A stretch of 64,000 nucleotides of DNA from Pohlia nutans (lineage: Eukaryota; Streptophyta; Bryopsida; Bryales; Mniaceae), in NCBI GenBank assembly GCA_022496805.1, contig CM040085.1:34935811-34999810 (forward strand). The letters run 5' to 3'. The notes below the pieces were generated by a model. The model searched no databases, was not told the DNA's origin, and worked only from the letters and a program-made list of their open reading frames with translations. Shown here in pieces: positions 34,635 through 63,503 of this stretch; positions within the stretch are counted from its first letter, which is position 1, and each line of letters begins with the position of its first letter. The position numbers were made by a program, and so were the translations under genes.

Positions 34635-34849
34635 ATGGATGAACCTCGTTATAATTCACGTCATGTAGATTTTATTGAAGATGATGGTTTTAGGAAATAC
34701 AAATTATTTGGAGATTGTCCGTTGTTTAAACATGATGATGTGCACAAGACGGTTGAAACAGCTCCAATGCCAATTTTCAAATTGGATGATGAAGATTTTT
34801 CATTATTCTCCAAAGTCTTGAACATCAACAAACCTTATGCACAAAATAC
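34635..34849 (+). pseudogene. Host reading frame interrupted by the giant transposon (5' part)
   Basis: An open frame starting MDEPRYNSRHVDF runs 71 codons to the transposon boundary at 34849. If the element and one copy of its 8-bp duplication are removed, the phase continues through 63504-63603 for about 33 more codons, with a basic, Cys-containing end, before TGA at 63604-63606. I do not recognise the product. The frame could also be one exon of a larger gene or a chance open stretch. Confidence 0.4.
34842..34849. repeat. 8-bp target-site duplication, left copy (CAAAATAC)
   Basis: Immediately before the left terminus CAGGGTTGT. The identical octamer lies immediately after the right terminus at 63496-63503. 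Eight-base duplications are characteristic of hAT transposons. Confidence 0.85.
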
Positions 34850-35117
34850 CAGGGTTGTCACTTCGGACGTCTTTGGACCAAATCTCATCCGATTTGACGT
34901 CCGGACGTCCGGACGTAGCGTCCGCTGGGTAAATCCCAATTTACTTTATCCGCTGCCGTTTTTTACCCTGGCGGACGGCGTAGCAGACGGCCTTGCAGAA
35001 AGCGTAGCGGACGGCCTGGCGCCCGTCCATCCGGACGGCTGGACGGACGGAGTATGTGGGCGGACGGCGGGACGGATGACCGGGCAGGCGGACGGCACGC
35101 GGACAACTAGAGGACGG
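34850..35117 (+). repeat. Left terminal region: TIR plus CGGAC-motif cluster
   Basis: After the terminus come about 250 bases dense in CGGAC/GGACGG motifs, mostly in one orientation, with a palindromic core ACGTCCGGACGTCCGGACGT near 34898. Repeated short motifs just inside the ends are where hAT and CACTA transposases bind. The GC content contrasts sharply with the AT-rich flanks. Confidence 0.75.
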
Positions 35118-35514
35118 CCAGGCCGGTTTAGGAGTTATGAAGGACTAAACCCTCAACAATTCAGGCCGTTCTAGGGTGATTGTAATAGTGGAAAATACAA
35201 ATTAAAATCTCACTAAGTCATTGGGGCCCTCTTTGTATTAAAAAAATTGCGACCTTGTTTAACGGGATAAAGCCCCACTCGTTCCAATAACATAAAATAT
35301 AAAAATAGTTGTATATATTATATTTCGCAAGTAAACAAACATTCATAAAAGGGAACGTCAGCAGAATATTGCCATCTATTCATGTACGTCATACATATCA
35401 CTATACAAATATGTACTTATAAAATCTATTTCCTGTCCAAACAACTACAATTACTAAATACTAGAATATCTTATAAAAAATACTCTACGAAAATACATAA
35501 ATGCTATTGAGTTT

Positions 35515-36621
35515 TCAATCTACTATGTAATCAGAATCTCCTTTCACCTCTGCTCCGCTACTGTCCTCTGGATCATATGACTCGTCGTCACTGTTAGAGT
35601 AATACTCGTTTCCCTTTCTCTCGTTGTATGCTGGTTGGATACTCTTCATTTTCCGCATGGATCCACTTGCGTCAAGGGGGGTTTTAACTCGCTGTCCTGG
35701 CTTTGGCGGAGAAGCAGCAAATGGTTCCATGAGCCTTTTTCGTTTAGCGTTGCCGTTTGCTGTTGGGCCAAATTTCTCTCCACTTGATGATATATGTTTT
35801 GGGCCCACAAGTGTCTCCTTCATCGTTCTCTTCTCCATTGGGCGTTGATTGTGCCTTGGGGGCACACCTGAAGGCTTTTTTATTATAGCTACTGATAAAG
35901 GCAAATTTCCGTCGCTTTCCGAATCTGCATCCGATTCTCTCACACGTTTATTCGCTGCTTTGGAAAGGGATACCAATGCCATTGAAGATGCAAGTGGAAC
36001 TCTGGGTGTTGGTGTTCTAGATTTATCAAATAAGGCTCTAGATGCAAGGGTGGTCCTCTGCATTTGGTCTTCACCACGAGGAGAATCTCTCTCTACAAAC
36101 TTCAACGGACTCTTACTAATTGGACCAAAATCTTCCTCTATGCCTTTCCATTTGGAGTGACCATTGTTCACCATTGTGGCCTTTCGCCCAGGAGAAAGCT
36201 CCAACTCAGAATCTTTGGGGTCCTTCAAAACACCCTCATGCACGGTGTCAATCCTTGTACCACCATCTTCACCACGTTTGTCCCCCTCTTCTTCACCCAA
36301 CTCTGGGATTGAATTGTTATCTTCTCTGACATTCACACCGGTATCGTCGGCATTTGATGCTTGCACGTGATTGCCCTCCTCTCCATCCTCAGCAAACTCG
36401 TATACATCGTGGCTTGATCGACCAGATCTTGGTGGAGAAGATTCAGGCCTTTGTAGAGAGAGTCGATCACTCCAATCGTCAAGAGGTTCATCAGCCCAGC
36501 GATCATCGTCTGATGCATGATTACCCACCCAATCGCCTCCATCATCTCCATCCGATTCTTCTGATGCGGAATCCGAATCCTCTGATGATACATTTTCGTT
36601 GTACCACTTCTTTTCATCTTT
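35515..36621 (-). CDS. Acidic C-terminal extension of the hAT transposase frame
   Basis: Lies in the same reading phase as the transposase, directly after its TGA (36622-36624), and stays open for more than 360 codons to 35515. The first part is strongly acidic (runs of E, D and S), followed by a basic, Ser/Pro-rich region (KRKR near the end) and an acidic tail. It has no catalytic motif. It is either a C-terminal extension lost to one stop mutation, reachable only by readthrough, or a decayed tail. An independent start at 36528 (MGNHASDDDRW) is possible but without support. Confidence 0.6.
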   Translation of the reverse strand, partial: KDEKKWYNENVSSEDSDSASEESDGDDGGDWVGNHASDDDRWADEPLDDWSDRLSLQRPESSPPRSGRSSHDVYEFAEDGEEGNHVQASNADDTGVNVREDNNSIPELGEEEGDKRGEDGGTRIDTVHEGVLKDPKDSELELSPGRKATMVNNGHSKWKGIEEDFGPISKSPLKFVERDSPRGEDQMQRTTLASRALFDKSRTPTPRVPLASSMALVSLSKAANKRVRESDADSESDGNLPLSVAIIKKPSGVPPRHNQRPMEKRTMKETLVGPKHISSSGEKFGPTANGNAKRKRLMEPFAASPPKPGQRVKTPLDASGSMRKMKSIQPAYNERKGNEYYSNSDDESYDPEDSSGAEVKGDSDYIVD

Positions 36622-38754
36622 TCACTTTGCCTTTGTGAGGAGCTTTGAATTTGTGTACACGTACACTAAATCTTCAGCCCTCTTTTGTTGGAGGCGATTC
36701 CGAGACCTGTTGTGCACGAAAGAATAACTACTCCAATTGCGTTCGCATGATGACGATGACACGGTTTGGGCTAGGATTCTCCGTGCTATTGGTGCAATGA
36801 GCTTTCCACATGCCCCTTCAAAATCCCACCATGCATGAGGTGAACAATTCTGTTGTTTTGGATCCAACATATTGTGGAAGGACGGTTCCTTGTGACGGAA
36901 TGCCAAAAACACTAGTACCACATCCGGATATGTTTCTGGAGAACATAATTTCCCAAGCACACGCTTGCATGCTGTGATGGCATCTAAGTCGTCTGCCAGT
37001 TCTTTATCGTGTAGCAAATACGGATTCAAAAGTGCACCCGCATTGTGTAAATCCGTTCTGACCAATGCCCATCGGTCGCGGGAGTGCTTCTCCACATCAA
37101 TGCTTTCTTCACCGTCAAAGGTAAAGAACTCATCCTTCACCCTTTCAATGTGTTTCTCCACATTGCGAAAGATGTGTCGAATTTTGCCCATACCAAGCTC
37201 CTCACTGTCAAAATCCCGCAGTGCATACATCAACGGTGCAACCACCTCTTGAAAGTTAATGCATCGTTGCCAAAAGTGATCGTCCAGTATGTACCTTCTC
37301 ACATCTCGAGACATAGTGCGCGCTTTAATCTTTCTGTTGTCTCGGAGTGTGACGACATAAGACGTCCATTGTTCGTCCACCACAGACTGCTCTAAGGCTT
37401 GTCTGACTTCGAGTAATCGATCCAGCATCATGAAATTTGATCCAAATCTAGTTTTCCCTGCCAATACTAGGCTGAACTTCTTCTCGTGCTTTCGAAATAC
37501 TGCAAGAGGCATGTGTCTCTTCTTTATAAACGTCACGATCGTCCGGGCCTTCTTCAACACCTGAGTTATCCACTTTGCCTTCGCGATGTCCCCCAATAAG
37601 AGGTTCATTGCATGAACATCACACCCTTGGAAGTATATGTGGTCATATTTGTTCGTCACGATATCCGCTGCTGCCTTCATGACAGATGCGTTGTCCGTTG
37701 CAATTTGCACCACGTTCTGCGATCCAACGTCTTCAATGAACTTCTCTATGATTGACGTTTGGTACGCTGCTGTCTTCGAATGTCCCGAAGTGTCTACCGA
37801 TCCAAGAAAATGTTCTCCTACCGCAGACACTATCATTGCATTGAATAACGGTTGGTTTGTGCACGAGCTCCATCCATCAAATGTTAACGTGGCTCCAAAC
37901 TTGCGAACGCTATCTGCCATTTTACCTTCCAAGATCGCCTCTAGCTCATTTTTGGCTTGCACCAAGAGTTTCTTCCGTAAGTCATTGTAAGAGGGTGGTG
38001 TGTACGGTCCCCGAAAATCAGAAGTCCTCCGTATGGCCTCTTTGAAAGTTGAATTTCGTGCTATCGAAAAAGGGATGTTCGCCTCGTAAAAGAACCTTGC
38101 CCATATCTTGTCTAACTCCCTTCGTTTCTCTTCCTGAAAACCCTCTGGTATTCCTGCTTGTCGCAATGGACGGTCGGCCCTGCCAGCTGCGCTGTCACGT
38201 CCCGTGGATGGTGGTCTGCTCGCGGTAGTTTCGTTTGTATTAGAACCTGACCTCTGATTTGAAATCTCTTGTGGTCCATCGCGTAATTCTTGATCCATTG
38301 ATTGCGGTGTGCAAAACTCCATGATGTCCATATTTCCCGCTCTCGGATTGCGACATTCATCGGATTGATCTGGATTTGGACGCTTTGGAGGATCTCCTTT
38401 GCAATTAAGAAAGAACCCTTTAATCTGTGGTGTAAGTCTCTTGCATATACCTACGCCAGTGTCACGGTTTCCTGATGCGTTCCGGTATCCAAGGTGACTC
38501 AACATCCTCCCCGCTTTCTTTGCAAAAAGTGATGCACATAATAAACACTTCACTTTTCCTCCAGCTATATCTACATACCAATCTTCCCAATTGCTTGGCA
38601 TCTTGAAAGGTTCAAAAGGATTTAGGTTCTGCTGCCCAATAGTTTTAAGTGACGGCGTGCAATACCTCAAAATCGTGTGACGAAAAAATGTATCATGTAT
38701 GTCAAATACAATAGTTATCAAATTCCAAACGGAATGTGACAACCGCGCATTCAA
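36622..38754 (-). CDS. hAT-superfamily transposase (BED finger, DUF659, hAT dimerisation)
   Basis: Catalyses cut-and-paste DNA transposition. The 710-codon frame is open; Met52 (codon at 38601, MPSNWEDWYVD) is a likely alternative start just before the zinc finger. A BED-like finger uses C70, C73, H87 and C104. The DUF659/RNase-H core holds candidate catalytic aspartates D293 (TFDGW) and D354 (TDNASV), followed by C378 and H381 (CDVHAMN). The C-terminal hAT block contains the candidate catalytic glutamate E671 (SCERNWS) and RNRLQQKRAEDLVYV. All expected catalytic positions are present, so the protein may be active unless the missing acidic tail matters. It is divergent from the RING gene across a shared GTCCG-rich promoter and is the natural candidate to recognise those motifs. 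Confidence 0.88.
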   Translation of the reverse strand: MNARLSHSVWNLITIVFDIHDTFFRHTILRYCTPSLKTIGQQNLNPFEPFKMPSNWEDWYVDIAGGKVKCLLCASLFAKKAGRMLSHLGYRNASGNRDTGVGICKRLTPQIKGFFLNCKGDPPKRPNPDQSDECRNPRAGNMDIMEFCTPQSMDQELRDGPQEISNQRSGSNTNETTASRPPSTGRDSAAGRADRPLRQAGIPEGFQEEKRRELDKIWARFFYEANIPFSIARNSTFKEAIRRTSDFRGPYTPPSYNDLRKKLLVQAKNELEAILEGKMADSVRKFGATLTFDGWSSCTNQPLFNAMIVSAVGEHFLGSVDTSGHSKTAAYQTSIIEKFIEDVGSQNVVQIATDNASVMKAAADIVTNKYDHIYFQGCDVHAMNLLLGDIAKAKWITQVLKKARTIVTFIKKRHMPLAVFRKHEKKFSLVLAGKTRFGSNFMMLDRLLEVRQALEQSVVDEQWTSYVVTLRDNRKIKARTMSRDVRRYILDDHFWQRCINFQEVVAPLMYALRDFDSEELGMGKIRHIFRNVEKHIERVKDEFFTFDGEESIDVEKHSRDRWALVRTDLHNAGALLNPYLLHDKELADDLDAITACKRVLGKLCSPETYPDVVLVFLAFRHKEPSFHNMLDPKQQNCSPHAWWDFEGACGKLIAPIARRILAQTVSSSSCERNWSSYSFVHNRSRNRLQQKRAEDLVYVYTNSKLLTKAK

Positions 38755-38809
38755 ACTCGGTAATGGTCAAGCAAGGGATACCAAAAGGTTGCCCAAAGCC
38801 CTTGACAAC

Positions 38810-38833
38810 TGGTGAGTTCGAATGAACTCACCA
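38810..38833. other. 10-bp perfect hairpin near the transposase 5' end
   Basis: TGGTGAGTTC, loop GAAT, GAACTCACCA. It lies between the minus-strand TATA-like box at 38852-38857 and the first transposase ATG at 38754, so it would fall in the 5' leader or start region. Function unknown. Confidence 0.5.
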
Positions 38834-38851
38834 AAAGAAAACCTAAATGAC

Positions 38852-39243
38852 TTATACTACCATCCGGCGAACTAGCCGTTGAACTAGCCGTTGAACAAGC
38901 GGACTGCACTGGTCTATTCTGCCGTCCGCTGTGCCGTCCGATATGCCGTCCGCTAGCGTTGGGCTGGATCGGACGCACTAGAGGGGACGGACCGGATCGG
39001 ACGGGGTCCATCGGATGGCAGAAACGCACGGACTGCATCGGACGGCAGAAACGCACGGGATGCATTGGACGCACCAAAACAGCGGACGCCTTAGGGTTTC
39101 GGGTTTAGGGTCGACCGGACGGCGATGATCGGACGGACAGCACGCTCCGGAGGACACATCGGATGGCAGACCCGGATCGGACGGGCGGACGGGCTGGTTC
39201 GGGCGGGAGGGACGCGGACGGCAGTATAGAAGGCCCATCCGTC
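38852..39243. promoter_or_regulatory. Divergent promoter region with GTCCG/CGGAC cluster
   Basis: Separates the minus-strand transposase from the plus-strand RING gene. Motifs read GCCGTCCG on the transposase side (38910-38955) and CGGACGG on the RING side (38968-39222), so each gene sees CGGACGG in the same sense. TATA-like boxes flank the cluster: AGTATAAG on the minus strand (38852-38857 core) and AGTATAGA on the plus strand (39225-39230 core). The symmetry suggests coordinated control by one factor. Confidence 0.65.
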
Positions 39244-39609
39244 TCCATTTGTCTTCACTTCTCACTCCTAAATCAGGTTGCTGGTAATTCCCTTTGCTGG
39301 ACTTCCTGGCCTTATTTACTTCAGTCGTGAGAGGTCATATACTTACTGTGACCAATCACCGGTTGGTCACAATAAGCATCTTACACACTTTATTCACATT
39401 GCAGTAGTATTTTCACGCGGACGGGCCATTCACATTTTCGCGGATTTTTTACCGAGACGGTTCTTTCACATTCTCGCTAGATTTTTACGCAGACGGTTGA
39501 TTCACATTTTCGCGAGATTTACTCACGGTTTAGGGTACACGGTTGATTCACCTCGTCGCGGGATTTCGTCACGGTAATTGCACACGGTTCATTCACACAT
39601 CGCAAAGCA

Positions 39610-42600
39610 ATGGCCGATGACCAACGTGAGGGTCAGGTTCCCGATCAACCCCAATCTCCGAATGCTAATGCTGGGCCTAGGAAGAACAAGCCTAAGGGGG
39701 CCCGTCATGCGTCGAATTACGACGTATTGGACGATCCAAATGTTCTAGCCGAACCAGGATGGGAACAAGTTAAGGAAGAATATTGGTCTGCCACGACAGC
39801 CAGACAATATATCAAACTGTACCACATTGGTAAGTGTGGCCGAGGGAACAATTACCACAGATGTCAAAATCCTTTACTGCCAAACTATGGCTGTGCAGTG
39901 ATGATCATTTCCTTCACCGAGCGGAAGAGGTATGGAGGGCAATGTTTGGGGCTTGTTCGAAGTCAAAAGGAACATCCAACTACAACATACTGGCAATGGT
40001 CTATGCGGAACTAAGGTTGGAACACAAGGTGGATTGGAGTACTTACCCTGCAACTCAAGGGCATCCAATTCAGTTGGCAGACGGGCAGCGAGATATTCCT
40101 AATTCGTATGATCTCGCATCTACAAGCACAAAACAGATGTTGGTCTCTTTAAAGAAACCTGGCACGTCGACTGCGAGCAATTCAAGTCGAGTGGAAGTCA
40201 AACGAAAGAAGGCTAAATTACCAGTACTACCTACGCCCGCTTTGGAGAATTTGGATGCAAGGGTGGAAATCGAAGTCAATGCTGAACGGGAGGAAATAAA
40301 AGTCAAAGTTGAATGGGACTTACAAGACAAAGTCGAAGATATTGCAACTTCCCCGTCTTGATCGATTCCGTGTAAGGAGGGCGAGGAACTGTTGCCGCAA
40401 AACCCATCGACGCTAATTCAGGCAACTGCAGAATCAAAGGGGAAACAAAAGTTGAGGTCCGATGCAATTGCCAAGAAGGACCGCCAAAAACAGTATAAGT
40501 TTGGACCGAACTGGGTGATGACGGTTCAAGGGGGAAATGTCGGTCCAAGCAATCCAAGTTCCTCGACTTTGAACGAGAAAAGCGCATGTCCGGATGACAC
40601 GGATACACTAATTCGGGATCCAAATGGACGTTGGAAAAACTGCGGGACTTTTTTATCAAAGATGATGCCTCTTGAGGAAATAATGATTTCATACGGGCAC
40701 TTGGCGGAGAAAGTTACCAAGCGAGCGAAATTGCACAAGAAGAGCAGTGGGAACTATCCGACAAGTTCCCCGACTTGGCAAGTGATCTAGGTTCGTTGAA
40801 ACTTATTTCGAAGAACGTGTACGTGAACTTGGTAAAAGCCATGGACGTAACTTCGTTCCTTCATACGTTGGCACCACAGCTTGCACAGCATCTCCAATCA
40901 ATTGAGACAAAATTGGGTCGTTGGGGGCCAGTCATCGAAAAGGCGAAGCGCGTTGATGAGCTCATCAAAAAACTAAAAGAAACAACGGAATGTGCAATGG
41001 GATTTGAGTGGTTGGCGAGGAAAACCCTAAAGCAACTACAATCGAGCGCTATACATAACCATTTCAAGACCATGCATCTCCAGTTCATTAATTTTCAGTT
41101 GTTAGAAGAGTTAGACAAGTTGCGAGAAGAAACTACAAAGAAAGAAGCATTACCTCAAGAATCCCTTGTCCCATCGGAGCAGATCTCTATTCCATTGAAT
41201 GCCAACACTTCGGACGGAGCAGTACTTGAAGAAACGCTTGCCCCATTGGACCAGTTGTCTCATCCATTGGATGCGCAGATTTTGGACGTAGCAGTACTTG
41301 AAGAAATTCTTGTGCCATCGGACCAATTGTCTGTTCCATTTGATGCCCGTACTTTGGACGAAACAGTGGTTGAAGATACTCTCGCTCCATCGGACCAGTT
41401 GCCTCTTCCTTTGGATGCTCAAACTTTGGACGAAACAGTGGTTAAAGATACTCTCGTTCCATCGGACTAGTTGCCCAATCCTTTGGATGCCCAAAGTTCT
41501 GACGGTGACCTCCACGATTAACAGGATCCTTCGTATTTGGTAAAGCGTCCAAGTGTAGCGGAGGTATTCGTGGAACAAGATAGGATGCAAAAAGAACCTT
41601 GGAGAGGGCCACCAACTGAAGCGGGTGAAACCAGTAACTCTGAGATCGAGACGTTGAGACAACGATTGATTCAAGCAGAGATTGACAGGGATATAGCGAG
41701 GTATGAATTACTATTCTAGAAAAGTACCGGTGACATGAAGATGCCCAGACCACGTCCTGAGCAAAACCTGCATTAGTTGAGTTATGTCCACCAATTAAAG
41801 AATGTGGATGAATTGGTCGAGAGGGAGTTGGGTTTGATGTTCAAGTACGAGGACAAAAAAAGTGGGAATCTCTCTTGTTTCCTAGGAATGATGAGGAGGG
41901 TGCAAGAATTATTTGATCGACAAGCCGCGTTGCCTGGAGCGCGTACACTGACTACGTGTACCACGTGGGGTGATGTTGACTTGATGATGACACGGGCACA
42001 TGGGATTTCTTGTTCTTTGGAAACAGGCAACATGGACTGGGCTTCGGCAATTGAAGAAGGGTGGATGCCATATAACGTGTTTTCCTCGCATTTATTGGAG
42101 AAGGAGAAGACGGAGGTTCATACATGTAATCCAGCTCCCGACTTTCTGAAAGAGACATGTTGCTTGTGTCAATATGGGTTTGGTCCAGAAGGAGCGATCC
42201 GACTGGAACAATGTCAGCATACATTTCATATTAAGTGCATTGCGGAACATTCTTTACATCGCTCTTATTGTCCCTTGTGCAATTCTCCTATACATATAAG
42301 ATTCTACGAAATGATGGGCCTTCGTAGCGTTATGCCATCTGGTCATGAATACAACCAGTGGAACCTTCCTCTGGACCAACTACCGAAGAAATTTCTAAAT
42401 TACAAAAACTGGGGTCAACCATTGGTATGAGATGTTAACTACGACTGCCACCACTTGTACCATATGCAAGTAGCAGGGTCTGAGGAAGAAATTTGTATGG
42501 AGGTTGACGAACTTTTCTGGATGACCCGAGATTGCAACATCGAAGTGCGAGCACGTGCAATTGAGAACGAGGCGGACCGGGAGGTGTTTTGCTGCAACTT

Positions 42601-43183
42601 TGGAGGACATTGGAGCGTACAGCACAAAAAGTTCTTTCGATTCTCAAAGAATGAAGTAAAAAAGAGAGATGATAACACGTGGTACGAGGCTTCCGGTTCC
42701 GTCTTGGGAGAATAACACGCAACGTATGACCGTACGTTGATTGGCAAAGCTCTGGTCCTTTCAAAGTTGGAGGAGGCGGCTAGGCTTCGTGCCACAACGA
42801 CCGAGGACATGTTCATTGATGAGGATAATTCCTATGGGGATGTTGCAGGTGCATTTGATAGGAGGATCAATGACGTAATCGAAACGTGGCGACGTCATAT
42901 GTTCACACCAAACTGGTCAACGACATTTGGAGAAACTGAGCAAATTGTAACTCTTGTTGTCGGTCGTGTGGAGAAGTACATGGAGGTTTTTAAGGCAAAA
43001 GAGGTGGACATGGATCGTTCTCGCGAGAGGAAACGAAAGGCTGACGAGGATGACAATTGGGAACCATCTCAAGACCACGTTGAAAAGAAGCTTGCGATAG
43101 ATTCAGAGGTTGAGGCAGGCGGTAGAATTACTCATGATAGTCAGCGTAGACGTACTCGTTCGATGAAGATTGATATCGCATGA
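39610..43183 (+). pseudogene. Decayed gene of about 1,190 codons with a C-terminal RING-H2 finger
   Basis: One ancestral reading frame can be followed through phase changes near 39834 and 40600 and through stops at 40359, 40673, 41468, 41519, 41717, 41774, 42428 and 42713 to TGA at 43181-43183. The N-terminus (AEPGWEQVKE, ARQYIKLYHIGK, then EVWRAMFG and HKVDWSTY) aligns with the gene at 48187. The middle carries five 24-residue repeats and coiled-coil-like stretches. A full RING-H2 finger lies at 42158-42280: C-x2-C-x14-C-x-H-x2-H-x2-C-x10-C-x2-C. The C-terminus is basic (RERKRKAD). RING-H2 proteins are usually E3 ubiquitin ligases, so that role is inferred for the intact ancestor. The promoter cluster lies upstream (38968-39243). 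As read, this copy cannot make the full protein. Confidence 0.75.
41150..41509 (+). repeat. 72-bp coding minisatellite (five 24-residue units)
   Basis: Units start near 41150, 41222, 41294, 41366 and 41438 and encode VLEETLAPLDQLSHPLDAQ-type repeats. The unit length is a multiple of three, so the phase of the RING gene is kept. The last unit has TAG where three other units have a CAG or CAA glutamine codon (and the first has CAG in GAGCAG). Confidence 0.85.
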
Positions 43184-43520
43184 CTGTTTTTTAGCCATTT
43201 GGCTACTATATGAATATATATAACTCTATTCACAATTCCATTCTTGTTGACTTCAATGTAGAATAAAATTTTCACACTCGGCTTTCTTTCACTTCTCTCT
43301 TTATACTTTTTGCAAAACTCATAATAATAGAGAATTCGCATTACATAATTTTAATTTGAAGGGCTCCCATAAATGCAATTTTTTTTTTATCGTGTTATAA
43401 TTTTAAAAAGAAAATGGGACAGCAGTGTAGGCATTTAGAGGTTTACCTAGTCAAAGTAGCAGATCACAGGAGCTAATGAACGAAGGACTTTTCATCTAAG
43501 CAAACTTTTTTTTCAACGCC

Positions 43521-43668
43521 GCCGTCCGACCTGTCCGCACCCCGATCTGCCGTCCGGACCTCTCCATCCGCTGCTCGCCGTCCGGTCCGGGGCCCTAAAA
43601 TGCCGTCCGCTGCACTGTGTCCGATCCGCCGTCCGATACAGTCGTCCGATTCGTCCGTTTGGACCGCC
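43521..43668 (+). repeat. GTCCG-motif cluster downstream of the RING gene
   Basis: About 150 GC-rich bases with ten or more GTCCG/GCCGTCCG copies in one orientation, 340 bases after the RING gene stop. No TATA box or gene follows, so it is either an orphan promoter, an end of a former smaller element, or an internal binding cluster. Confidence 0.6.
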
Positions 43669-43771
43669 CACAGTCAGATCCCATGAAGTTGTCCAACTCA
43701 ATAACTTCCCAAAACGGAATAAATGCAATGAGGAATCCAATGATTGTGATTAAGTGAGCCAAAGAATCCTA

Positions 43772-44645
43772 TTAACCCCTAAATGCCTAGAGCCCTCTCC
43801 AAATTCGACAGTTTTGCAAAGATGCATTATAAAATGCAACCTAGAGGGATATTTTGAACTTGATATATGAATAAAAGTTGTACATTATGAATTTTACATT
43901 CTATCCATACGGTTAGATCTATGATTGCTATTACCAATAATTTTGCATAAAATTTGAAACGTGAAATTCAAAATTATTTTGTAATTCAATTACGAATAAG
44001 ATATTGACAATCTACAGATGAAATTTTTTGTGATTGGTTGAAATGTAATACTCTAAATGTAGTGATTTTTGGAGATTTTTTGGTTGCTTAATTTTATGAG
44101 TTGACTTTTTTTAGAATTGATGGTTGGTATGGTGAAATCACTACAATTTGCATACTTGAAATATCACATTGGATGATTTATAATTTTTCATTGATAGTCA
44201 TCAACACTATGAAGGTATGACGAAAATTTCAACATGATTGGAAGATATAATTTGAATATTTACAAATTGTATTATGTAAACAAGATAAAATTTCAAAATA
44301 AATATATTTTTTATCAAATTTAATATTAAATTTTTTATTTAAGGTAGATAAAAGTCACATTTACAAGTAGTAAAAATATGAAAGCAAAAGATCTAAAAGA
44401 GTCCTATGATTGGAGCATTTGTAGAAAGCCCTATGTATTTAGGACACTCTAATTTCAAATTTCTCAGCGTTGGAAAAACTTCAATAGATTTTCTACTTTC
44501 CAATCCCAAGGGTCAAAATATGTATCATAACTTAACTTAAACATCTAACGAAAACACCAACTACAAAAAAGCTAAAACACTTGATTTTAAGGACGTTGGA
44601 CCAAAAATCAAGCATGATATGGTTGATTGGGCACTTAGGTTACAC
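43772..44645. mobile_element. Nested/decayed TTAA elements
   Basis: The left end TTAACCCCTAAATGCC (43772) belongs to the 11200 subfamily. The sequence from about 44205 to 44645 is an inverted copy of 62236-62483 plus 63032-63195, ending in a decayed terminus (GGGCACTTAGGTTA). After 44646 a further piece of the 43772-type interior follows (ATTCTATCCATACG), so elements are nested here. No coding capacity. Confidence 0.6.
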
Positions 44646-45099
44646 ATATGAATTTTAGATTCTATCCATACGTTAAGATCAACGGTTACAAATACCAATT
44701 AAATTGTATAAATATAGAATGACTTGGGATTCTGAAATAAGTGAATTTCAATGGTTGAAATCATATATTGATATTGACTAAGTGAAGTGATTTTAACAAA
44801 TGCTGTCACACAACAATATAACATGCATGATTTAAAATTGAAAACTAATAAAATAATAGGCGAATTACTATCTTTATATCATACAAATGGTTTTCTACTA
44901 TTTTCTTCAGTTGAGAATAATTCAAACCCCTTAGTGGTTACATATTCTAAATATTCTTATTATTTCCTAGTGACATTGTATACTTGTAAATTAATAAAAT
45001 TTAGCATTCTTTACTGGTAAAAGTCCCAAAATATAAACCACCAAGCTTTTGCACAATAAAAAATAATATTCCACCTAGATCGTTCCTTTTTGAAACTAT

Positions 45100-45309: not shown

Positions 45310-45349
<40 letters not shown>

Positions 45350-46943: not shown

Positions 46944-46974
<31 letters not shown>

Positions 46975-47700: not shown

Positions 47701-47702
47701 AC

Positions 47703-53735: not shown

Positions 53736-54284
53736 CAACGCTAGCGTGCGAGCTTAGAATGGAGAGCCCGAGAGCGGAGAGCGGGGATTTGGAGAGCCTA
53801 GAGCCTAGGATCCATCTGAATTTTGGAAATGACACTAATTCTAGAAAATAAATTTCTAAATATAGTTAGTTACTATTTATAGTAAATTTTGGTACCCTAT
53901 GACCGTTTATCCTATAACCGTGTGTTAGTACTTAGTAGAGTAAAATGTTTAGAGTCAATCATAAAGGAATGGATAATTATAGGGTACATGTCTTTCTGTC
54001 CTCTACCTACACCTTGGGCCCAACCGTCCTCGCTGCATCCTCTTCCACCATGCGCATAGTAAAACATACTTAGCATTTGTCTTTCTATCTTCAAAACACT
54101 CTTTGTCCAAGGACACCAAGGGCATCTGTGAACTGGACTCTTACCAGATCCAGTGCACATACTTAGCAAAAAACTACCTCAGAAATAGCATACTCATCTC
54201 TTGCCTTGTCTAACCTCCAAGGCATCCAAATACGCGAAGGTAACCCAAGACCGTATGCTAAAGTTACTCAAGCGTATATATAAA

Positions 54285-54344
54285 TAAATAAATATATATA
54301 TATGTATATATATATATGTATATATATATGTATATATATATATG

Positions 54345-54410
<66 letters not shown>
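54285..54410. repeat. AT/TATG microsatellite
   Basis: About 125 bases of (TA)n with interspersed TG steps inside the Mutator-like element. Open frames across it are artefacts. Confidence 0.9.
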
Positions 54411-54414
<4 letters not shown>

Positions 54415-54768
54415 TTGGGAACCAAGGCACGTCTTGGGGGCTGGAGTATTCACCTAACCAAGTCTATACCCTGACTAGCTATTCCATGACCTTATGACTA
54501 CTTACTTACCATGTCTTCCCTGATCAGGCAGCCTTGCTGGCCTGTTTTTGGTCTCAGTTATCTCCATACAATTACCCAAACTAACAGAACATGTGGATCT
54601 ATATGTACTATTTTATGTTTTGCTCTTTGTTTCGTACATAGTTATAGTGGTCAATCATATCGAGAAGGTACTTCAATAAATTCGAAATAAGAGATTAGCG
54701 ATTCAAAATAGGAAGCTACTGCTTCTAGGTCTAGTTTCCCCGTCTAAACACCAATTGTGACTCATTCT

Positions 54769-55725
54769 TCAATCCTCGGTCTTGATGATCCCAGCAGCCA
54801 AGAGAATTTTTTTAACCTCATCCAAGCTAAGAGTAGGAGCATGGATGGACGTGTCAATTTTATAGTTCAGCTTGCAAAAGAATCGAAAGATATAGTAGAG
54901 GTGTTTGCAGTTGACGTAATAGCCACGCCTCCCAACAGCTACAGAATTCATGCTCGCGTAATGTGGGCACGTAAATGACGGAAAATTGCACAATGTGATA
55001 TTGTACAAATTGTCGTCGGGCTCCAGCCCGGACTGAAGCACGATGATGGCACCAAGCCCGGGGTACGGGAAGAGGTTTAGGCGGAGAATATTTGCCTTGA
55101 CGTTTCATGCACTCTCCCATTGATTCCAGTGAGCTTCCGTGGGAGCCTTGGTGTTTCGTCGCACGTTTTTGCCGTTTCGAGAAGATGGGAACTTGTCAGC
55201 ATGTAGAGGTCTTGGGTGAGTCCAGATGATGGGTTCAAACACCTTGGACGTCGTAAAGAGGCATCGAGGCGAAAGGGCTGTTGTGGACTCAAGACGAAAC
55301 CCGGCTTCTTGGAGCTCTAGGATCTCCGAACGTGTGAGGTTCGTTCAAGAGAGATCGGGCTAAACGTCTGGGATGTCCGGGCAGTCTATGACAAAGAAGC
55401 GCTTCGGCCCCATGACACATCGTGCGACTTGGTCAGGATAGAACCAAAAATCAGCAGTTTGGGGTTTGGTCCCTTTGTATTCCGTCCTAGTGCCTCGATA
55501 GGTTGGAGCAGCTGTGGCCTTACCGCCCTTTGCAATCAACATCTTGTACTTGTTCCCATTCCCCGCTTGTACTACATGACACTGTTTTCTGAACTTGTGC
55601 GATATCCTTGCAATGTGCCATTTCGAGGTGTCACAGTTAGTCTCCAACACCCTAGTCGTGAATGGTACCTGGAGAGTGGTCTCGGCCCCGAGACCACTAT
55701 CTGACTCTCCCAGTTCTCGAACCAC
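54769..55725 (-). pseudogene. Relic with a SWIM-like zinc finger, probably the Mutator-type transposase
   Basis: Minus-strand pieces: 55725-55360 (WHIARISHKFRKQCHV, KRFFVIDCPDIPDV) and 55041-54769 (ITLCNFPSFTCPHYAS, then YYVNCKHLYYIFRF). The second piece has the CPH...CKH spacing of SWIM zinc fingers, which follow the catalytic core in Mutator/FAR1 transposases. The pieces are in different phases with stops between them, so no intact protein can be made. The catalytic DDE region was not found. The assignment rests on the finger and on the element that contains it. Confidence 0.4.
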
Positions 55726-56934
55726 ATAAGCGATGGAAGCATGACGGAACCTAACCTATGGCGACCATGGCACCAAGGATTGACATTGCAAGAGCAAACT
55801 GTTTCCAAATCCGATGGGAATGAGGTTTAAGTGACTGTCGATCTACTGGTTAAGGTTACGCAAATATCCCTGTGTGGGCTCAAGCATCCCAGTGGACTCT
55901 AGTTGTACAGGCGGGACTTGGGATTTAGAGCCGATTGCCACAGGGATGCTCCACCACTCCAGCGTCTAGCCAGAGCTCTGTGAACTCCGTATCATTGCGC
56001 ACGCGCTACCTTCACTTCCGCCCGATCTCTGCCACGAACCGACGCACCCCTGCACTACTATGACTTCCGCTTGAGCTTTGCGACAAGCCAACCCCTACGC
56101 TGCCACGACCCCGCCCATATGCTGCTCACGTGCTACCTCTAACATCTCGTGTTGTAAACTCCGCGCGTAGTTGACAGTTTGCCACGTTACACTCCAGCAA
56201 GTACATACGTAGTGGCGGTAGTGCGGAAGAGTTTACCACTTAACGAAGATTTCTTCATGTCAGATTTAATGTCGTTGCCTCGTGGAGGAGCTTGCGCAGA
56301 TATGACAGTCGGCGTGAATGGGAATGAATCAAACAGTCCATGGAACCACGGCAAAGAGGAACCCACGGCATTCAACGAATTGAGGTTTAAATAAAAAACA
56401 TGTAAAACCTAGAGGGAAAGACAATGGCCGTGACGCTCGCCACGCTGGGGCGGTGGTCACGGCACCAACCTCTTCCCAAACCCAGCTCCTCTCCACAGTG
56501 GTCTCGGCCCCGAGGATACCAAAGAGCCTTTCTAAGACTCAAACCATACAGTCCACGGAACCATGACTTCACCACGCCACAAGGCTCAATATGGAGCGAC
56601 GGCCATCACCACGAAGGTGGTGCATAGCCTCACCATCCGCCAACGGCTACCACTACCACTTAAATCTCCATTCACCAGTGAGTACAAAGAGTAACCCACG
56701 ACAACCGAGGCCACAACAAAACATCCAAAAAATGTCTTAAGTAGGTACTCGAGTGCTATTTTCAGCGTCACGAGTTCGAGTCTTTGCGAATGATGGGTGT
56801 CGTCTCGAGCCAAGGGCTATGTGGACGGGCCCAAGGTTTGCATGTCAAGGGCTTTCCAACGTTGTATATCACATTCAAGTTCGACATAAACTTCAAACGT
56901 TATGCTCAACTAAAATACTCATGCTGAAATTTTA

Positions 56935-58560
56935 TGCTGCGCAGCTTTCAATAGACCATAACTTTTGGAGTTTTTGTCCAAACACAATGAGTCTTATACC
57001 GTTGAAACGCCCTCTGCAAGAGCTTTCCAAAAACATATGACAAGCCATACTTCCAAAAAAAAATGTCTGAACAGGGTTCTCGAGGGCAATTTTGGGCGTC
57101 GCGAGTTCATGAACTGGGAGGGTCAGATATAGGTCTCGGGGCCGAGACCACTCCCGAGGGGTGCGGGTTCTCGAAACAAACTTCAAAAGTTATGCTCAAT
57201 TCAAGTAGTCATGCTGAAATTTTATGCTGCGCAGCTTTTAATAGACCATAACTTTTGGAGTTTTTGTCCAAACTCAATGAGTCTTATACCGTTGAAACGC
57301 CCTTTGCAAGAGCTTTCCAAAAACATATGACAAGTCATACTTCCAAAAAAATGTCTGAACAGGGTTCTCGAGGGCAATTTTGGGCGTCGCTAGTTCGAGA
57401 ACTTGGAGGGTCAGATATAGGTCGTGGCGAGTCGTGATTTTGCGATGTCCAGGAGTGCCGTCGGGGCCGACGGGTACTTTGAGGGGTCCCAGTTCATGCT
57501 TTGACGTGGCCACGCCACGAGGGGCCAGTGGCGCGCGCGTGGCGGCGACGCTCGTGGCGCGGGCTCCTGTCGCGTGGCGGCATTCTCCATGGTCGTGGCG
57601 AGTCGTGATTTTGCAAGGTCCAGGAGTGCCGTCGGGGCCGACGGGTACTTTGAGGGGTCCTAGTTCATGCTTTGACGTGGCCACGCCACGAGGGGCTAGT
57701 GGCGCGCGCGTGGTGGCGACGCTCGTGGCGCGGGTTCCTGTCGCGTGGCGGCATTCTCCATGGTCGTGGCGAGTCGTGATTTTGCAAGGTCCAGGAGTGC
57801 TGTCGGGGCCGACGGGTACTTTGAGGGGTCCCAGTTCATGCTTTGACGCGGCTACGCCACGAGGGTCCAGTGGCGCGCGCGTGGCGGCGACGCTCGTGGC
57901 GCGGGCTCCTTTCGTGGTGGGCAGCCCGAGACCATTGGCGTCACGAGTTCTCTACGTGATTGTATAGGGCCCTTGCATGCAAACCTTGGGCCCTCCCACA
58001 TAGCCGTCGGCCCCGACGGCTATGTAGGAGGGCCCAGGGTTTGCTTGCAATGTCACTGCCGTGGTGTGGAATTTCTGGAAGGCAGCCCGAGACCATTGGC
58101 GTCACGAGTTCTCTACGTGATTGTGTAGGGCCCTTGCATGCAAACCCAGGGCCCTCCCACATAGCCGTCGGCCCCGACGGTTCATCCATCACTCGCCAAA
58201 CCAGGACTCGTGACGCCCAAAATAGCACTCGAGAACCTTCTTCGGACTTCTTTTTTGGAAGCATGCCTTGTCATATGTTTTTGGAAAGCTCTTGCAAAGG
58301 GCGTTTCAATGGTGTAAGACTCATTGAGTTTGGACAAAAACTCCATAAGTTATGGTCAATTGAAAGCTTCACAGCCTAGTACATCAGCCTAACTATTTCA
58401 ACTGAGCATAACTTTTGAAGTATATGTCCAAATTGAATGTGCTATACACCGTTGAAAAGCCCTTGACAAGAGCTTTCCAAACACATATGACAAGACATAC
58501 TTCCAAAAAAAAGTCCGAAGAAGGTCTCGAGTGCTATTTTGGGCGTCACGAGTCCTGGTT
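56935..58560. repeat. Repeated 160-bp unit in direct and inverted copies
   Basis: A unit containing CCATAACTTTTGGAGTTTTTG, CTTGCAAGAGCTTTCC-type and CATATGACAAG blocks occurs directly near 56943-57105 and 57236-57390, inverted near 58250-58365, and directly in diverged form near 58395-58560. GTCGGGGCCGACGG-type palindromic blocks punctuate the area. Part of the Mutator-like element. Confidence 0.75.
57421..57930. repeat. GC-rich 171-bp tandem repeat (three units)
   Basis: GTCGTGGCGAGTCGTGATTT recurs at 57421, 57592 and 57763, exactly 171 bases apart, with high identity; the third unit is cut short near 57930. Because 171 is divisible by three, long open frames appear on both strands, but they have no other sign of coding. 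Confidence 0.9.
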
Positions 58561-58719
58561 TGGCGAGTGATGGATGAACTGTCGGGGCCGACGGCTATGT
58601 GGGAGGGCCCAGGGTTTGCTTGCAATGTCAGTGTCGTGGTGTGGTATTTGTGGTGGGCAGCCCGAGACCATTGGCGTCACGAGTTCTCTGCGTGATTGTG
58701 TAGGGGCTAGAATCGTAGT

Positions 58720-59990
58720 GGGCCGGGCCTAGGGTCTTGAAGCGCGTGTTATTGTGTGTGAATGTTGGATCATGACGCGCATTTAAATGGTGAGGTGCTG
58801 GTCCCTATGGGCGACACGAGTTGTGGTTTGCGAGTATTGGGTGGGCCGTCAGGACCGAGGGCTTCCATTGAGGACCCAGGATTTGCTTGAGTGGTCGCCA
58901 CGCGTGGTGTGGAATTTGTGCTTGGGCGTTACGAGTCCTTTGGGCGTCACGAGTTTGTAGCGTGAATGTGATGGGTAGGGTTTGTAATGGACTGGGCCTA
59001 GGGTCGTCATGCGTGTTAAATTGTGTGTGAATGTTGGGCAATGGCGTGCATTTGAGAAGTGAGGGCTCGCCCTCCTGGGCGTCACGAGTTTTGGTTTGGG
59101 GAATGATGGTTGGGTCGTCGGAGCCGAGGGCTATGTGGGAGGGCCCAAGTTTGTTTGTGTGGTCGTCACGGGTGTTGTGGAGTTTATGTTTGGCGTGACG
59201 AGTCCTTGGGCATGACGTGTTTGATGCGTGAATGTGTTGGGTTGGATTTGTAATGGGCTGGGCCTAGGGTCGTCATGTGCGTTGAATTGTGTGTGAATGT
59301 TGGGCTATGACGCGCATTGGGATGTGAGGGCTCGCCCTACTGGGCGTCACATAGCGTGAATGTGTTGGAATATATTCGTAATGGGCTGGACCTAGGGTCG
59401 TGATGCGCGTTGTATTGTGTGAGTGTTGGGCCATGACGCCCATATGGGAAGGCAGGCTCTTGGTGTGTTGGAGTCACGAGTTGTGGTTTTGCGAGTGCTG
59501 GTGCGCCGTAAGGGCCAAGGCCTAATATTGTAGGTCCAGGGCTTGCTAGCAAGCACATCACGCGAGTTGTGGAATTTGTGTGAGTGTATGTGTTGGGCTG
59601 GATTCGTAATGGGCTCAGGCCTAGGTTGGTGATGTTTGATGTTCAGTGTGTGAGTGTTTATGTTGGGGCTGGATTCGTAATGGGCTGAGTTAGGTTCGTA
59701 TTGCTCGTTGTATTGTGTGTGAGTATGGGCTAGGACACGCACTTCAGAAGTGAGGGGCTGGCCCTTTTGGGCGTCACCAGTTGTGGTTGTGCAAAGGCTG
59801 GGTGGGTCATCGGGGACAAGGGCACCTTTAGAGGGCCCATGGTTTTCTTACAAGGTCAGCGTGAGGTATAGAATTTTTGCTTGTGCGTAGTGGGTCTGGG
59901 CTCGTGATGCTCGTTGTATGTTGTGAAAGTGTTCGGCTATGACGCGAATTTGGGAGGAGAGGTGCTGGCCCCTGTGGGCGTCACAAGTTG
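58720..59990. repeat. Degenerate GC-rich repeat array (about 265-300-bp units)
   Basis: The theme 'GGGCGTCACGAGT...GTGGTTTGCGAGT...GGGCCGTCGG...GTGTGAATGTTGG' recurs, with the GAATGTTGG-type anchor at about 58761, 59030 and 59296 and more irregularly to 59925. No coding capacity is inferred. Confidence 0.65.
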
Positions 59991-60433
59991 TGGTTTTTCA
60001 TTTGGGAGGTGGTTCTGCGAGAGCTTGGTGGGCCGTGGGGGCCGGTTTTTCTTTCAATCTATCCCAGCTCTTAAGGCTCTTGGATTAGATGTGGGTTGTG
60101 ATGATATGTTACAGAATTTCATCACGAAGGCCTCTCAACGCATGAATGGAAGTAAGCCTTGGATGATATTGTTCAAGTTTTATTTTTCCATGTTCAATCC
60201 CTAAACCCTTGATTCCAAAACCATTAAGTTTTAATAATACATTTGGACAGATGTAGTATGTGAAATAATTACATTTTACATTACAGTCCAAATACACTAA
60301 AAATTCCATAAATATTGATCCCACGGTTATAGGTCTTTTAAAAAAAAATTAAAAAAAAATTGAAAATTTTCTAGGCTCTCAGGCTCTTAGGCTCTTGGGC
60401 TCGCACTCCCAGGCTCACATGCTAGCATTCCCG

Positions 60434-61403
60434 TGCTACGGCCAATGTCATTGAAGTGGAGCACACATCACTCAAGGGTGCATATGCTACCGTCAAGAGG
60501 GTTTGAATTGAAGGAGCTCCAGGGTTTGAACCTCATTGGGAGTTTGCGGCGAAACTTTCAAAACATGCGAGGACTAGACCGGATCTTGCGAAATTGGAAC
60601 ACCAAAATGAAACGATGGCCGTTCGAATTGAACATCCAGGTGTTATACGATACGTGGCTATTCATGCTTCAAAATATGAGGGTTATGCATATTGGTGGAA
60701 TGGTGGGACATTGCGACAGATGCTGAATTTAGACAACACGTACGGAGACAATATCTACGCGCGTATGTTGCATGCACCTATGTCAGCGGACGATGTGATC
60801 AAAGCAAGTTATCTGAGGCGGTCCCGTAAAAAAAGAACGGAGTTGGCGTGGGCATTGGTGATCATCATGCATGAGGTACACATGACCAACAGCCTGCACA
60901 ATGATTTATCTCCCGATAATATCCTTTTTCATTTCCCTGCGGATGAGACGCGTGTATACATCGGGGTATGTGACTGGGGCATGTTATCCTTTTTGACGGA
61001 GCCAATGGAGTCACTATATGGGTACAACAATACAGAGGAAATGCAGAAGGATCTTGCAGAACGGTGGTGGGTGGATCCTACGATTGCTTATGTACGTAAG
61101 CCAGATGCAGATGTGGAAATACGCCCACCAATGACGAAGACAACTGAGGCATATGGAGTTGCAAAAATTGCTATGCGCATCAACAAGGGCAACATGTCGG
61201 AGGATTATTGGAAGTTGCAGACGCGTGGAGAAACTTCAGCAGTATATGAACAACAGGATTTGGCAAACGTGTTTGAGGGCTATTTGAATCGATTGTGCAG
61301 CAAGGATCGAGCAAATATTGGAGGTTTAACTCATATAGTGACACGTTTTAGGCTTACATACAAGTGGCCAGTACCGTACGAGCATTTTAGAAATGTGTAT
61401 TAG
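60434..61403 (+). pseudogene. Kinase-like gene, 3' part (protein-kinase fold, TGA in the N-lobe)
   Basis: Continues the 53201 gene after the insertion. The N-lobe has a Gly-loop/lysine-like segment (LKGAYATVKRV, K codon 60495), then TGA at 60504, then HPGVIRYVAIH and YAYWWNGGTLRQML (the hinge). The catalytic loop is HNDLSPDNILF (60897-60929): H-x-D and the distal Asn are present, but Asn replaces the usual Arg of HRD. DWG at 60972-60980 replaces DFG. A helix like the kinase F-helix follows (TEAYGVAKIAM). The stop is TAG at 61401. All core catalytic residues have counterparts, so the ancestor was probably an active non-RD kinase; the substrate is unknown. This copy is broken by the stop and by the Mutator-like insertion. 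Confidence 0.75.
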
Positions 61404-62235
61404 GCAAAACATAGTGATATAGTTCTTTTTGGTTTAGAATAGTAGTAACAGTATTGAATTGTTCTATGGCTATTGCTGTGTGCTTATGCATAGAACACCT
61501 GGACTTCTGTCCGACTATCAGGAAAATATTTTCTTTTTTGACATTTACGGAAAAAAAAATTCCATATGTTTTATTGTTTTTGGAATTTTGCTATCTCTAT
61601 GTTCATTGATATAAGTGGGTTTTGCAGCCATGAGTCCCGGGACTCCAATTTGGAATTTTTTTGCACACATGGGTACCTAACGTTATTAGAATTTAGAAAC
61701 ACCCTCAAATTTCCTTAATATTTTGGAAAATAGTTCTTCCATGTGTTATTGGAATTTTGCTAACTCTATGGTATTTGACTAGGATTTGCAATCTGTGGAT
61801 TTGTGTTGACAGTTTGAATTAAACATACGACACTGTGGACCAATGTATCCAAGGGTACAAGTGTTACCTTCACACCCTCGTTTACAACTTTGCTTTGTAC
61901 ATCAACTCCATTCCTGTTTGGCTGTTTTCCAGCACCCATTTGTAAACAACTATTTGAAAACAATGTTGTATTGGCACCTAAACCCCTAAACGCCTCAGCG
62001 TTCTACTTGTGGACGATATACATAGTTCATCACAAATTACCCTAAACCGTCATGCACTTTTGTAGTGTGGACTTTTTACTGTAAATTCGATGGGAAGTAA
62101 GCTTCGCACGTATGTGCTCCAAGTACGAAGGGATGATTTGTGAATTTATTATGCTCCATTTCATGTTGTAGTGATTCACCCGAAAATTTTAAGATTTTAG
62201 GGTAAAAGCTCTCTAGAATAAGCAAACTCATAATT
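61404..62235. other. AT-rich DNA inside the giant element, no gene seen
   Basis: A terminus-like CCCCTAAACGCC near 61982 lacks a TTAA. Otherwise nothing is recognised. Confidence 0.45.
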
Positions 62236-63195
62236 TTAACCCCTAAAGGACCAATCAACCATATTATGCTTGTTTTTTGGTCAAACGCCCCAAAAATCAA
62301 GTGTTTTAACTTTATTGTAGTTAGTGTTTTTATTAGATGTTTTAGTTAAGTTATGATACATATTTTGACCATTGGGATTGGAGAATAGACTTCATTTGAA
62401 GATTTTCCACCGTCGAGAAATTTGAATTTTGAGTGTCCATAATACAAAGGGATTTCTAAAGATGCTACTATCATAGGTCTTTTTTAACTCTTTAACGTCC
62501 CAATTCAACACTGTTTTTAAAGAAGTGTTATAAAATGTTTGATGGAAACCGAAAATGGAGTTGATGTACAAAGAAAATTTGTAAATGCCAATGTGAAGAT
62601 CACATCTGTACGGTTAAATGTATCATATTTTTTATTAATAATTTAAAACTAATTTTGCAAGGTTTTCTCTTGAAATTCAATTAAAAATCCTGAATTAACA
62701 CAAAAAAATTGAGAAATATTGGAATGAAATTGGAATAACATGCACTATGCGATGATATGGTTTCCATTATTTGATTCTACTTATTTTGGAAAATCATGTC
62801 TAAGGTCTCACTTTTTGAACTAAGAATGAAACTTGACATAAACCAATTGTGTAATTTTTCCAAAAATCATGATAACCTATTTTGAAGATCCACACCGTAT
62901 AAAGGATAGTCAACTTACACAAGAACCCAAAAAGAAATTGGTGGATGAAAACTGTCCACTTTGGATGGAAATCGAACAGCTTTAATCTGTTCGTCGTCCA
63001 ATATATGGACGCTAGCGCGCTAAAGGGTTAATTTATTCACTTTCAGTTTTTTACTCATTGTAAATATAACTTATATCTACCTTAAATATAATTTTTGATA
63101 TTAAATTTGACAAAAACATATTTATTTTGAATTTTTCCCTTGTTTACATAATAAAATTTGTAGATATTCAAAATATCTTCAAATCATGTTGAAAA
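62236..63195 (+). mobile_element. TTAA element (outer) interrupted by another
   Basis: Starts TTAACCCCTAAAGGACCAATC (62236). Its body, 62240-62483 and 63032-63195, matches the inverse of about 44205-44645. The far end is lost where the GTCCG cluster begins (about 63200). Confidence 0.65.
62484..63031 (+). mobile_element. TTAA element nested in the previous one
   Basis: TTAA at 62484-62487 and 63028-63031. The left end is CTCTTTAACGTCC and the right end is GGACGCTAGCGCGCTAAAGGG. Related copies lie at 12933-13412 and, as a fragment, in an ACC1 intron (1345-1445). The uninterrupted relative at 44.2-44.6 kb lacks this 548-bp block. Confidence 0.78.
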
Positions 63196-63202
63196 CTATG
63201 AT

Positions 63203-63495
63203 CGGACGTCCACTGCAACGTCCGATCGGGTCCGCCGTCCGATCTGCCTAAACCGCCGTCTGACCTGTTCGATCTGTCCGCTCGTCCGACCTGTCTGCCG
63301 TCCGATCTGTCCAGTCCGCCGTCCGACCTGTCCAGTCGTCCGATCGCCGTCCGCTGAGGTAAAACCCCCGTCCGCTGTGGTAAAACCGCCGTCCGCTGTG
63401 CATTTTTCAAAGTCACTGGACGCTGAGACGGGAACGTCTACGTCCAACGGACGTCCGGACGCGAACGTCCGCGTCCCAGCGTCCGAACAATCCTG
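63203..63495 (+). repeat. Right terminal region: GTCCG cluster plus TIR
   Basis: About 280 bases dense in GTCCG motifs, mostly opposite in orientation to the left end, ending in CGTCCGAACAATCCTG at 63495. The two ends therefore form an inverted pair of motif arrays. Confidence 0.75.
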
Positions 63496-63503
63496 CAAAA
63501 TAC
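63496..63503. repeat. 8-bp target-site duplication, right copy (CAAAATAC)
   Basis: Directly follows the right terminus; identical to 34842-34849. Confidence 0.85.

Follow-up and report, generated by a model that had tools for sequence, protein, structure and literature searches.

Evidence for a 22-kb multigene hAT transposon in the moss Pohlia nutans

The window analysed here is a stretch of 64,000 nucleotides from the moss Pohlia nutans (assembly GCA_022496805.1, contig CM040085.1; C1:34935811-34999810). Positions 34850 to 63495 of the window very probably form one single hAT transposon, which carries from left to right a transposase gene, a gene with a RING-H2 zinc finger (gene 2), a further gene (gene 3) and a kinase-like gene, in the same order in the copies that were read (Table 1). 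Elements of the hAT superfamily duplicate 8 bp of their target and have termini that begin with CAGGG or CAGRG; autonomous plant members are usually a few kb long. At this locus the octamer CAAAATAC is perfect on both sides and directly flanks CAGGGTTGT (starting at 34850) and ACAATCCTG (ending at 63495), and the termini are short inverted repeats of the CAG(G/A)G type, in keeping with hAT elements. A preliminary description of this DNA had proposed a 28.6-kb hAT element with an 8-bp duplication exactly outside both termini and a hAT/DUF659 transposase near its left end. The octamers at 34842-34849 and 63496-63503 bear out the former, and the latter is real as judged by its Pfam domains (the Pfam scan covered 10 of the 18 open reading frames (ORFs) of at least 150 amino acids, two short host-flank pieces, one further ORF piece and some relatives). 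The inverted termini named in that description are present too, but the repeat is only about 9 bp long with one mismatch, and inward of it the two ends share only GGACG-type subterminal repeats, not true inverted repeats. Its boundaries likewise stand, except that the span 34842..63503 includes the duplications and the element proper is 34850-63495. The octamer by itself is not rare in the window (6 occurrences against 4.5 expected). A chance octamer was rejected because pairs of CAGGRTT...AAYCCTG with the same 8 bp on both sides and a spacing above 500 bp occur exactly once in the window, and none of 200 mononucleotide shuffles of the window holds any.

Table 1. Features of the element in the window, and target-site duplications of other copies.
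Feature	Position	Strand	Details
Whole hAT element, window copy	34850..63495		28,646 bp, one nested insertion included; boundaries shared with other copies
Left copy of 8-bp target-site duplication	34842..34849		CAAAATAC; single octamer at uninterrupted relative sites
Right copy of 8-bp target-site duplication	63496..63503		CAAAATAC
Left terminal inverted repeat	34850..34858	+	CAGGGTTGT; 9 bases
Right terminal inverted repeat	63487..63495	-	reads CAGGATTGT on the minus strand
hAT transposase (DUF659 and hAT C-terminal dimerisation domain)	35515..38574	-	one in-frame stop, giving two ORFs
Gene 2	39610..43183	+	pieces 39610-40011, 39834-40361, 40676-41470, 41777-42430 (RING-H2 zinc finger), 42716-43183
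Gene 3	48187..49272	+	start set at an ATG; one in-frame stop in the window copy
Kinase-like gene, 5' part	53201..53735	+	matches P0039 residues 1-179; stops and frame change here
Kinase-like gene, 3' part	60434..61403	+	matches P0039 residues 176-497
Nested insertion in kinase gene	53736..60433		6,698 bp; 12-bp duplication TGCTACGGCCAA at 53724-53735 and 60434-60445
Left subterminal motif cluster	34864..35094		12 hits
Motif cluster between divergent transposase and gene 2	38923..39220		12 hits
Motif cluster behind gene 2	43523..43657		7 hits; no gene found adjoining
Motif cluster in first half of tandem duplication	46178..46303		9 hits
Motif cluster in front of gene 3 (second half of tandem duplication)	47705..48011		15 hits
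Motif cluster in front of kinase gene	52925..53038		6 hits
Right subterminal motif cluster	63203..63485		15 hits
Tandem duplication	45767..47825		halves 45767-46305 / 47310-47825, 87% alike, a motif cluster in each
Imperfect palindrome	49562..51579		2 kb, 74%; part of the element, since present in other copies too
Duplication 8/8	C20		TTCGTCTG; 23,020 bp
Duplication 8/8	C4		GTTCCGGG
Duplication 8/8	C17		CTCTTGAA
Duplication 8/8	C9b		GACCGGTT
Duplication 8/8	C1b		TTCTCTAG
Duplication 8/8	C16:25920538-25999566		GGATACTC; ends about 79 kb apart
Duplication 8/8	C12		CTTCCAGT
Duplication 8/8	C7b		ATACCAGT
Duplication 8/8	C2		CCCAAACC
Duplication 8/8	C19		ACTATGGC
Duplication 8/8	C3		GACGGATA
Duplication 8/8	C11		AAATACAC
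Duplication 8/8	C23		GGTGCACT
Duplication 8/8	C1		TGTACAAA
Duplication 8/8	C6		AGTATGTG
Duplication 7/8	c9		GTTAGATG/TTTAGATG; 31.7 kb

Searches of the assembly (697.8 Mb in 332 contigs) found the element at many places, as a unit of about 22 kb with the duplication on both sides. The best 40 of 315 candidate left ends were scored; of their 39 non-self matches, 38 begin at query positions 4-10 (the element's first base being position 9) and one at position 30. For the right end, where the best 40 of 311 candidates were scored and 73 matches listed, 33 of the 39 non-self best matches stop at 293/294, position 293 being base 63495. Eight left ends that were read, the window's included, have eight different flanking octamers; five begin with CAGGGTTGT, and one each with CAGGGTTCT, TAGGGTTGT and CAAGGTTGT, these three differing from it by one mismatch. 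The right terminus is mostly ACAACCCTG in other copies. At 20 pairs of left and right ends, the duplications agree in 8/8 bases in 16 pairs and in 7/8 in one, do not match in another, and are untestable in two (C20b, whose left terminus is missing, and C14). Their octamers differ between loci, and a random 8/8 match has a probability near 2e-5; in ten pairs the right end taken was the candidate, with no more than two mismatches to ACAACCCTG, whose flank agreed best with the left octamer, a choice that slightly favours matches. The earlier proposal to look for the termini at other loci was borne out: they occur there with other 8-bp duplications, 20-79 kb apart. A scored right end was found for ten of the 40 scored left ends, and for 15 further ones a scored kinase lies 17.1-45.6 kb downstream in the right orientation (17.1-19.0 kb in 10 of the 15); as a control, one pair of wrong orientation and on the wrong side was found within 80 kb.

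The earlier suggestion of an empty site with one octamer also found support, in relatives of the insertion site elsewhere in the genome, on C8 and C7, and not in alleles. The joined host flanks found six places in the genome, two of which are the window's own halves. The uninterrupted relative on C8 (97%) is identical at 506 of 521 positions through the junction and has one octamer with one mismatch in it, and that on C7 (89%) has one exact octamer followed by a small deletion. Two weaker relatives, on C8 (81%) and C7 (78%), have the opposite orientation. The host halves joined at the octamer give no single open frame across the site, and in the uninterrupted C8 relative the frame also breaks shortly after the octamer.

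Matching duplications lie 20.5-23.0 kb apart in nine copies (C20 and eight others) and 26-79 kb apart in the other eight, window included, and the element measures 21,964-22,309 bp in six copies. Comparison of copies puts the native size at about 22 kb: a nested insertion accounts for 6.7 kb of the window copy and is absent from the three copies checked (c9, c17 and C20), in which the sequence is continuous across that point. Minus this insertion and one copy of its duplication, the window element is 21,936 bp long; the 28.6 kb first given is correct for the window copy but not for the native unit. The nested insertion has GCTAGC-containing ends and GC-rich tandem repeats inside, and is possibly Mutator-like, as we presume from the length of its duplication. 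The c17 copy has an insertion whose start sequence is related to it (74%). The C16 copy, of which 30 kb were read, seems to have been more than tripled by insertions. Nested insertions enlarge individual copies, with matching duplications as much as 79 kb apart, and can mislead annotation.

The transposase of the window copy is 90.5% identical to its relative P0002 over 1,022 residues and matches PF05699 (hAT dimerisation; expectation value (E) 3.2e-10) and PF04937 (DUF659; E 1e-33). D233, D294, C318, H321 and E612 are invariant in 13 relatives, and we take D233, D294 and E612 to be the hAT DDE catalytic triad. No relative was found in the viral contigs scanned with the transposase alignment. 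The five ORF pieces of gene 2, between which the reading frame changes, presumably through introns or frameshifts, appear to be one gene, and they recur in the other copies read (c16, c17, c9 and, in part, c1b). Gene 3 is related to the first part of gene 2 (36% identity over 47 amino acids), and its segment 48445-49269 has no Pfam match. In c16, c17 and c9, 30 kb of each of which were read, the transposase, gene 2 and gene 3 are ordered as in the window, with the kinase also in place in c17 and c9. The 30 kb read of c1b hold only parts of the transposase and gene 2, in the same order. C20 shows all the genes in the window's order; none of its matched pieces contains a stop, though a frame change divides the transposase match. 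With a stop in its transposase and an interrupted kinase, the window copy has probably lost its autonomy; kinase frames free of interruption occur elsewhere in the genome.

Uninterrupted, the kinase has 497 residues in P0039; the window copy is split by the nested insertion. K215, D332, N337 and D355-W-G, which we take to be the catalytic residues of a kinase, are invariant in 19 relatives. The predicted model of the protein is of moderate confidence (mean predicted local distance difference test score, pLDDT, 72.7), and its best structural matches in the PDB are protein kinases with a modest fit (best E 3.3e-6; template modelling score (TM-score) 0.56 by target and 0.34 by query; root-mean-square deviation near 10). 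Pfam matches of the kinase are weak, mostly below the curated cut-off, with none for P0039, and a PDB sequence search with the kinase found nothing. Relatives in the moss Ceratodon purpureus are 45-52% identical to the window kinase piece. Two proteins of that species annotated as hypothetical or kinase-domain, P0061 and P0078, belong to the kinase family of the element and may be transposon genes annotated as host genes; one of them has 126 member sequences and a locus tag that would suggest the V sex chromosome.

Of the 82 occurrences of a short motif, CGGACG/CGTCCG, in the window, 81 are inside the element. The C20 copy has 117 hits, whereas 100 first-order Markov simulations gave 5.9 on average and never more than 14. 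Seven clusters of at least three hits are found in the window, and C20 has seven at corresponding places. The motif may be a transposase binding site shared between the ends of the element and the fronts of its genes. The internal clusters were also considered as ends of nested copies, which was rejected because the C20 copy has the same clusters. Likewise 44227-44655 and 62224-63194 were rejected as ends of a nested element, their inverted similarity being found in other copies as well.

Ratios of nonsynonymous to synonymous substitution (dN/dS, as simple pairwise estimates) are 0.53-0.59 for the full-length transposases of the window, c17, c9 and c16 (6 pairs) and 0.55-0.63 for the kinase (3 pairs). 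In gene 2 they are 0.53-0.75 for the first piece, 0.21-0.68 for the second and 0.25-0.80 for the RING piece (6 pairs). The kinase looks about as constrained as the transposase, and gene 3 does not. An accessory function of the kinase and RING proteins, as opposed to a passenger status, appears to us evenly poised. That both are captured plant genes, drifting as passengers with no role in transposition, we consider rather unlikely. Stops in 47 of the 86 scored kinase copies (39 are without stops; 86 of 646 candidates were scored) and the lack of clear constraint on gene 3 and part of gene 2 would suit such passengers, but the dN/dS of the kinase is similar to that of the transposase, and its catalytic residues are kept in relatives down to 41% identity. 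Moreover, for a relative of the kinase (P0074, 81%) and one of the transposase (P0001, 86%) the longest contig listed has the same length, 27,639 bases, suggesting that they lie on one contig.

The best-known large DNA transposons that carry genes come from fungi and fish; here a 22-kb multigene hAT is described in a land plant. Like other members of its superfamily (Ac/Ds, Tam3, hobo, Tol2 and the plant DUF659 hATs), the moss element has an 8-bp duplication, short CAGGG-type termini, subterminal repeats and a dimerisation domain. Ordinary hATs are a few kb in size with one transposase gene, whereas the moss element is about 22 kb long and has several genes, among them the kinase and the RING gene, and its subterminal motif also fronts internal genes. 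VANDAL/MuDR and En/Spm are multigene plant DNA transposons that encode accessory proteins in addition to the transposase, some with an anti-silencing role; they belong to other superfamilies than the moss element, and their proteins are not known to include a kinase. Fungal ToxhAT, a 14-kb hAT that carries ToxA, resembles the moss element as a large hAT with a gene besides the transposase, and differs in that it moves this effector gene between species by horizontal transfer (excerpts of PMC9594970); the moss element has different genes, in a recurrent set, and is present in many copies within a single genome. Teratorn, a giant eukaryotic DNA transposon of 180 kb, is a piggyBac element (excerpts of PMC10175614). 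It belongs to another superfamily and carries virus genes, whereas Pfam found no virus replication or structural genes among the scanned ORFs of the moss element (small ORFs were outside the scan), only sub-threshold matches such as PF05878 (E 0.065). The fusion partner of Teratorn is reportedly a herpesvirus.

Starships, too, are eukaryotic DNA transposons of very large size that carry genes in addition to their recombinase; they typically measure about 100 kb and have a tyrosine-recombinase captain and tens to hundreds of cargo genes (excerpts of PMC11623301). In the moss element a hAT transposase is instead the first gene at the left end, the duplications are 8 bp long, and the gene set is small and recurrent; no tyrosine recombinase was found among the Pfam-scanned ORFs. 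The preliminary description had likened the element to Starships and had seen several cargo genes in it. A Starship-like hAT that captures varying host genes and carries them along would explain the large size, the several genes beside the transposase and the nested inserts that vary between copies, but we regard it as improbable. The gene order is identical in the copies read (only a few were read through), copies vary by insertions and deletions and not by exchange of genes, and Pfam gives no clear host-gene homologue beyond the RING finger and the weak kinase matches. With the same genes in the same order in the copies read, these look like genes of the element and not like variable host cargo; of the earlier comparison the size alone stands, the genes read forming what looks like a fixed set. 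We regard the element, which is a hAT transposon in all the features open to testing, as large, multigene and cut-and-paste, of exceptional size and with a recurrent set of accessory genes. No title or abstract was found that reports a giant or large hAT in plants or mosses, and a paper on Physcomitrium transposable elements (PMC7466625) has no whole-word match for hAT.

Highly improbable, and largely refuted by collinear copies with their own duplications, is a composite of a short ordinary hAT (from the left end to about 44 kb) beside hAT-related fragments, with the outer CAAAATAC pair coincidental and the internal motif clusters as ends of nested relatives: motif clusters inside the element, the relatedness of gene 2 and gene 3 and the tandem duplication would favour it, but the order is collinear in other copies, internal clusters included, 17 of the 20 end pairs have 8/8 or 7/8 duplications, the lengths of six copies fall within the narrow range given above, and matching flanks are found at none of the window's other CAGGRTT/AAYCCTG pairs.

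Several observations nevertheless weigh against a single element with a conserved set of genes. The locus C7:20590272 has both ends, with no match between its duplications (2/8), and the C20b copy is without a left terminus. The right end was not found in the 2.2 kb examined for C14, in 41.5 kb for c17, or at the single place tried for C1:49466684, C9:18504361 and C21:5508486. Within the best-scored lists, 15 of the 40 left ends have no partner among the scored right ends or the scored kinases. Of the five internal motif clusters, three front a recognised gene and two do not. Constraint is not clear for gene 3 (dN/dS 0.42-1.35, 6 pairs), for the last piece of gene 2 (0.43-2.84, one pair undefined) and for the c1b transposase fragment of 161 codons (0.54-1.42), and none of the dN/dS estimates carries a significance test.

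If the element is a single multigene hAT transposon, a zinc-finger-like segment at the N-terminus of its transposase would, by what is known of hAT biology, bind both the terminal repeat and the subterminal repeats of the GGACG type, and the transposase would excise the element and join it to staggered 8-bp cuts in the target. With less certainty, the motif clusters fronting the transposase, gene 2, gene 3 and the kinase would allow one factor, probably the transposase, to co-regulate them. The kinase and RING proteins would then provide standing accessory functions, for example countering host silencing or adjusting the state of the host cell. This raises the testable question of why a transposon would need its own protein kinase.

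Two subfamilies of the element differ in their distribution over the chromosomes. Among the 86 scored kinases closest to P0039, 85 are on C2, 3, 6, 7, 10, 11, 14, 15, 18, 19, 22 and 23, and one is on C1; the 40 right ends closest to the window include 37 on C1, 4, 5, 8, 9, 12, 13, 16, 17 and 20 and three on C3 and C6. The 40 scored left ends are mixed between the two chromosome sets (21 to 19) because the left end matches both subfamilies. Neighbour pairs 1/2, 3/4 and so on to 19/20 are each split one to one between the sets; as the sets were drawn from the same data, this is a pattern and not a prior test, with C13 resting on one match and contig numbers assumed to follow the chromosome numbers of PMC9247546. 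According to excerpts of that paper, most adjacent P. nutans chromosomes are syntenic pairs from a recent duplication (synonymous divergence, Ks, 0.11; 5.85 million years ago), and the words "allopolyploid" and "subgenome" are absent from its main text. Literature on P. nutans and allopolyploidy gave no title or abstract on the origin of the genome. The split of the two subfamilies between the members of adjacent chromosome pairs suggests that P. nutans is an allopolyploid with two subgenomes, the simplest reading being two progenitors with a separate expansion of the element in each. In a genome that was described on publication as a whole-genome duplication, the subfamilies appear to serve as labels of two subgenomes. 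More tentatively, a plant hAT lineage may have become a self-contained multigene mobile system, in which the motif serves for docking of the transposase at both ends and for control in front of the genes, and the kinase and RING proteins are conserved effectors acting on the host, and whose separate radiation in two progenitors marks the subgenomes.

Beside the element, positions 1-4300 of the window presumably hold acetyl-CoA carboxylase-like exons on the minus strand, and 18366-20267 we take, also from its translation, to be a single-ORF DUF668/PSI1-like host gene. Near the right end of the element, 62484-62958 is 84% alike to 12933-13411 outside it and is present in c9. The C4 and C12 copies are without a stretch matching the overlapping 61973-62625, and 62484-62958 may be an old insertion or a variable repeat.

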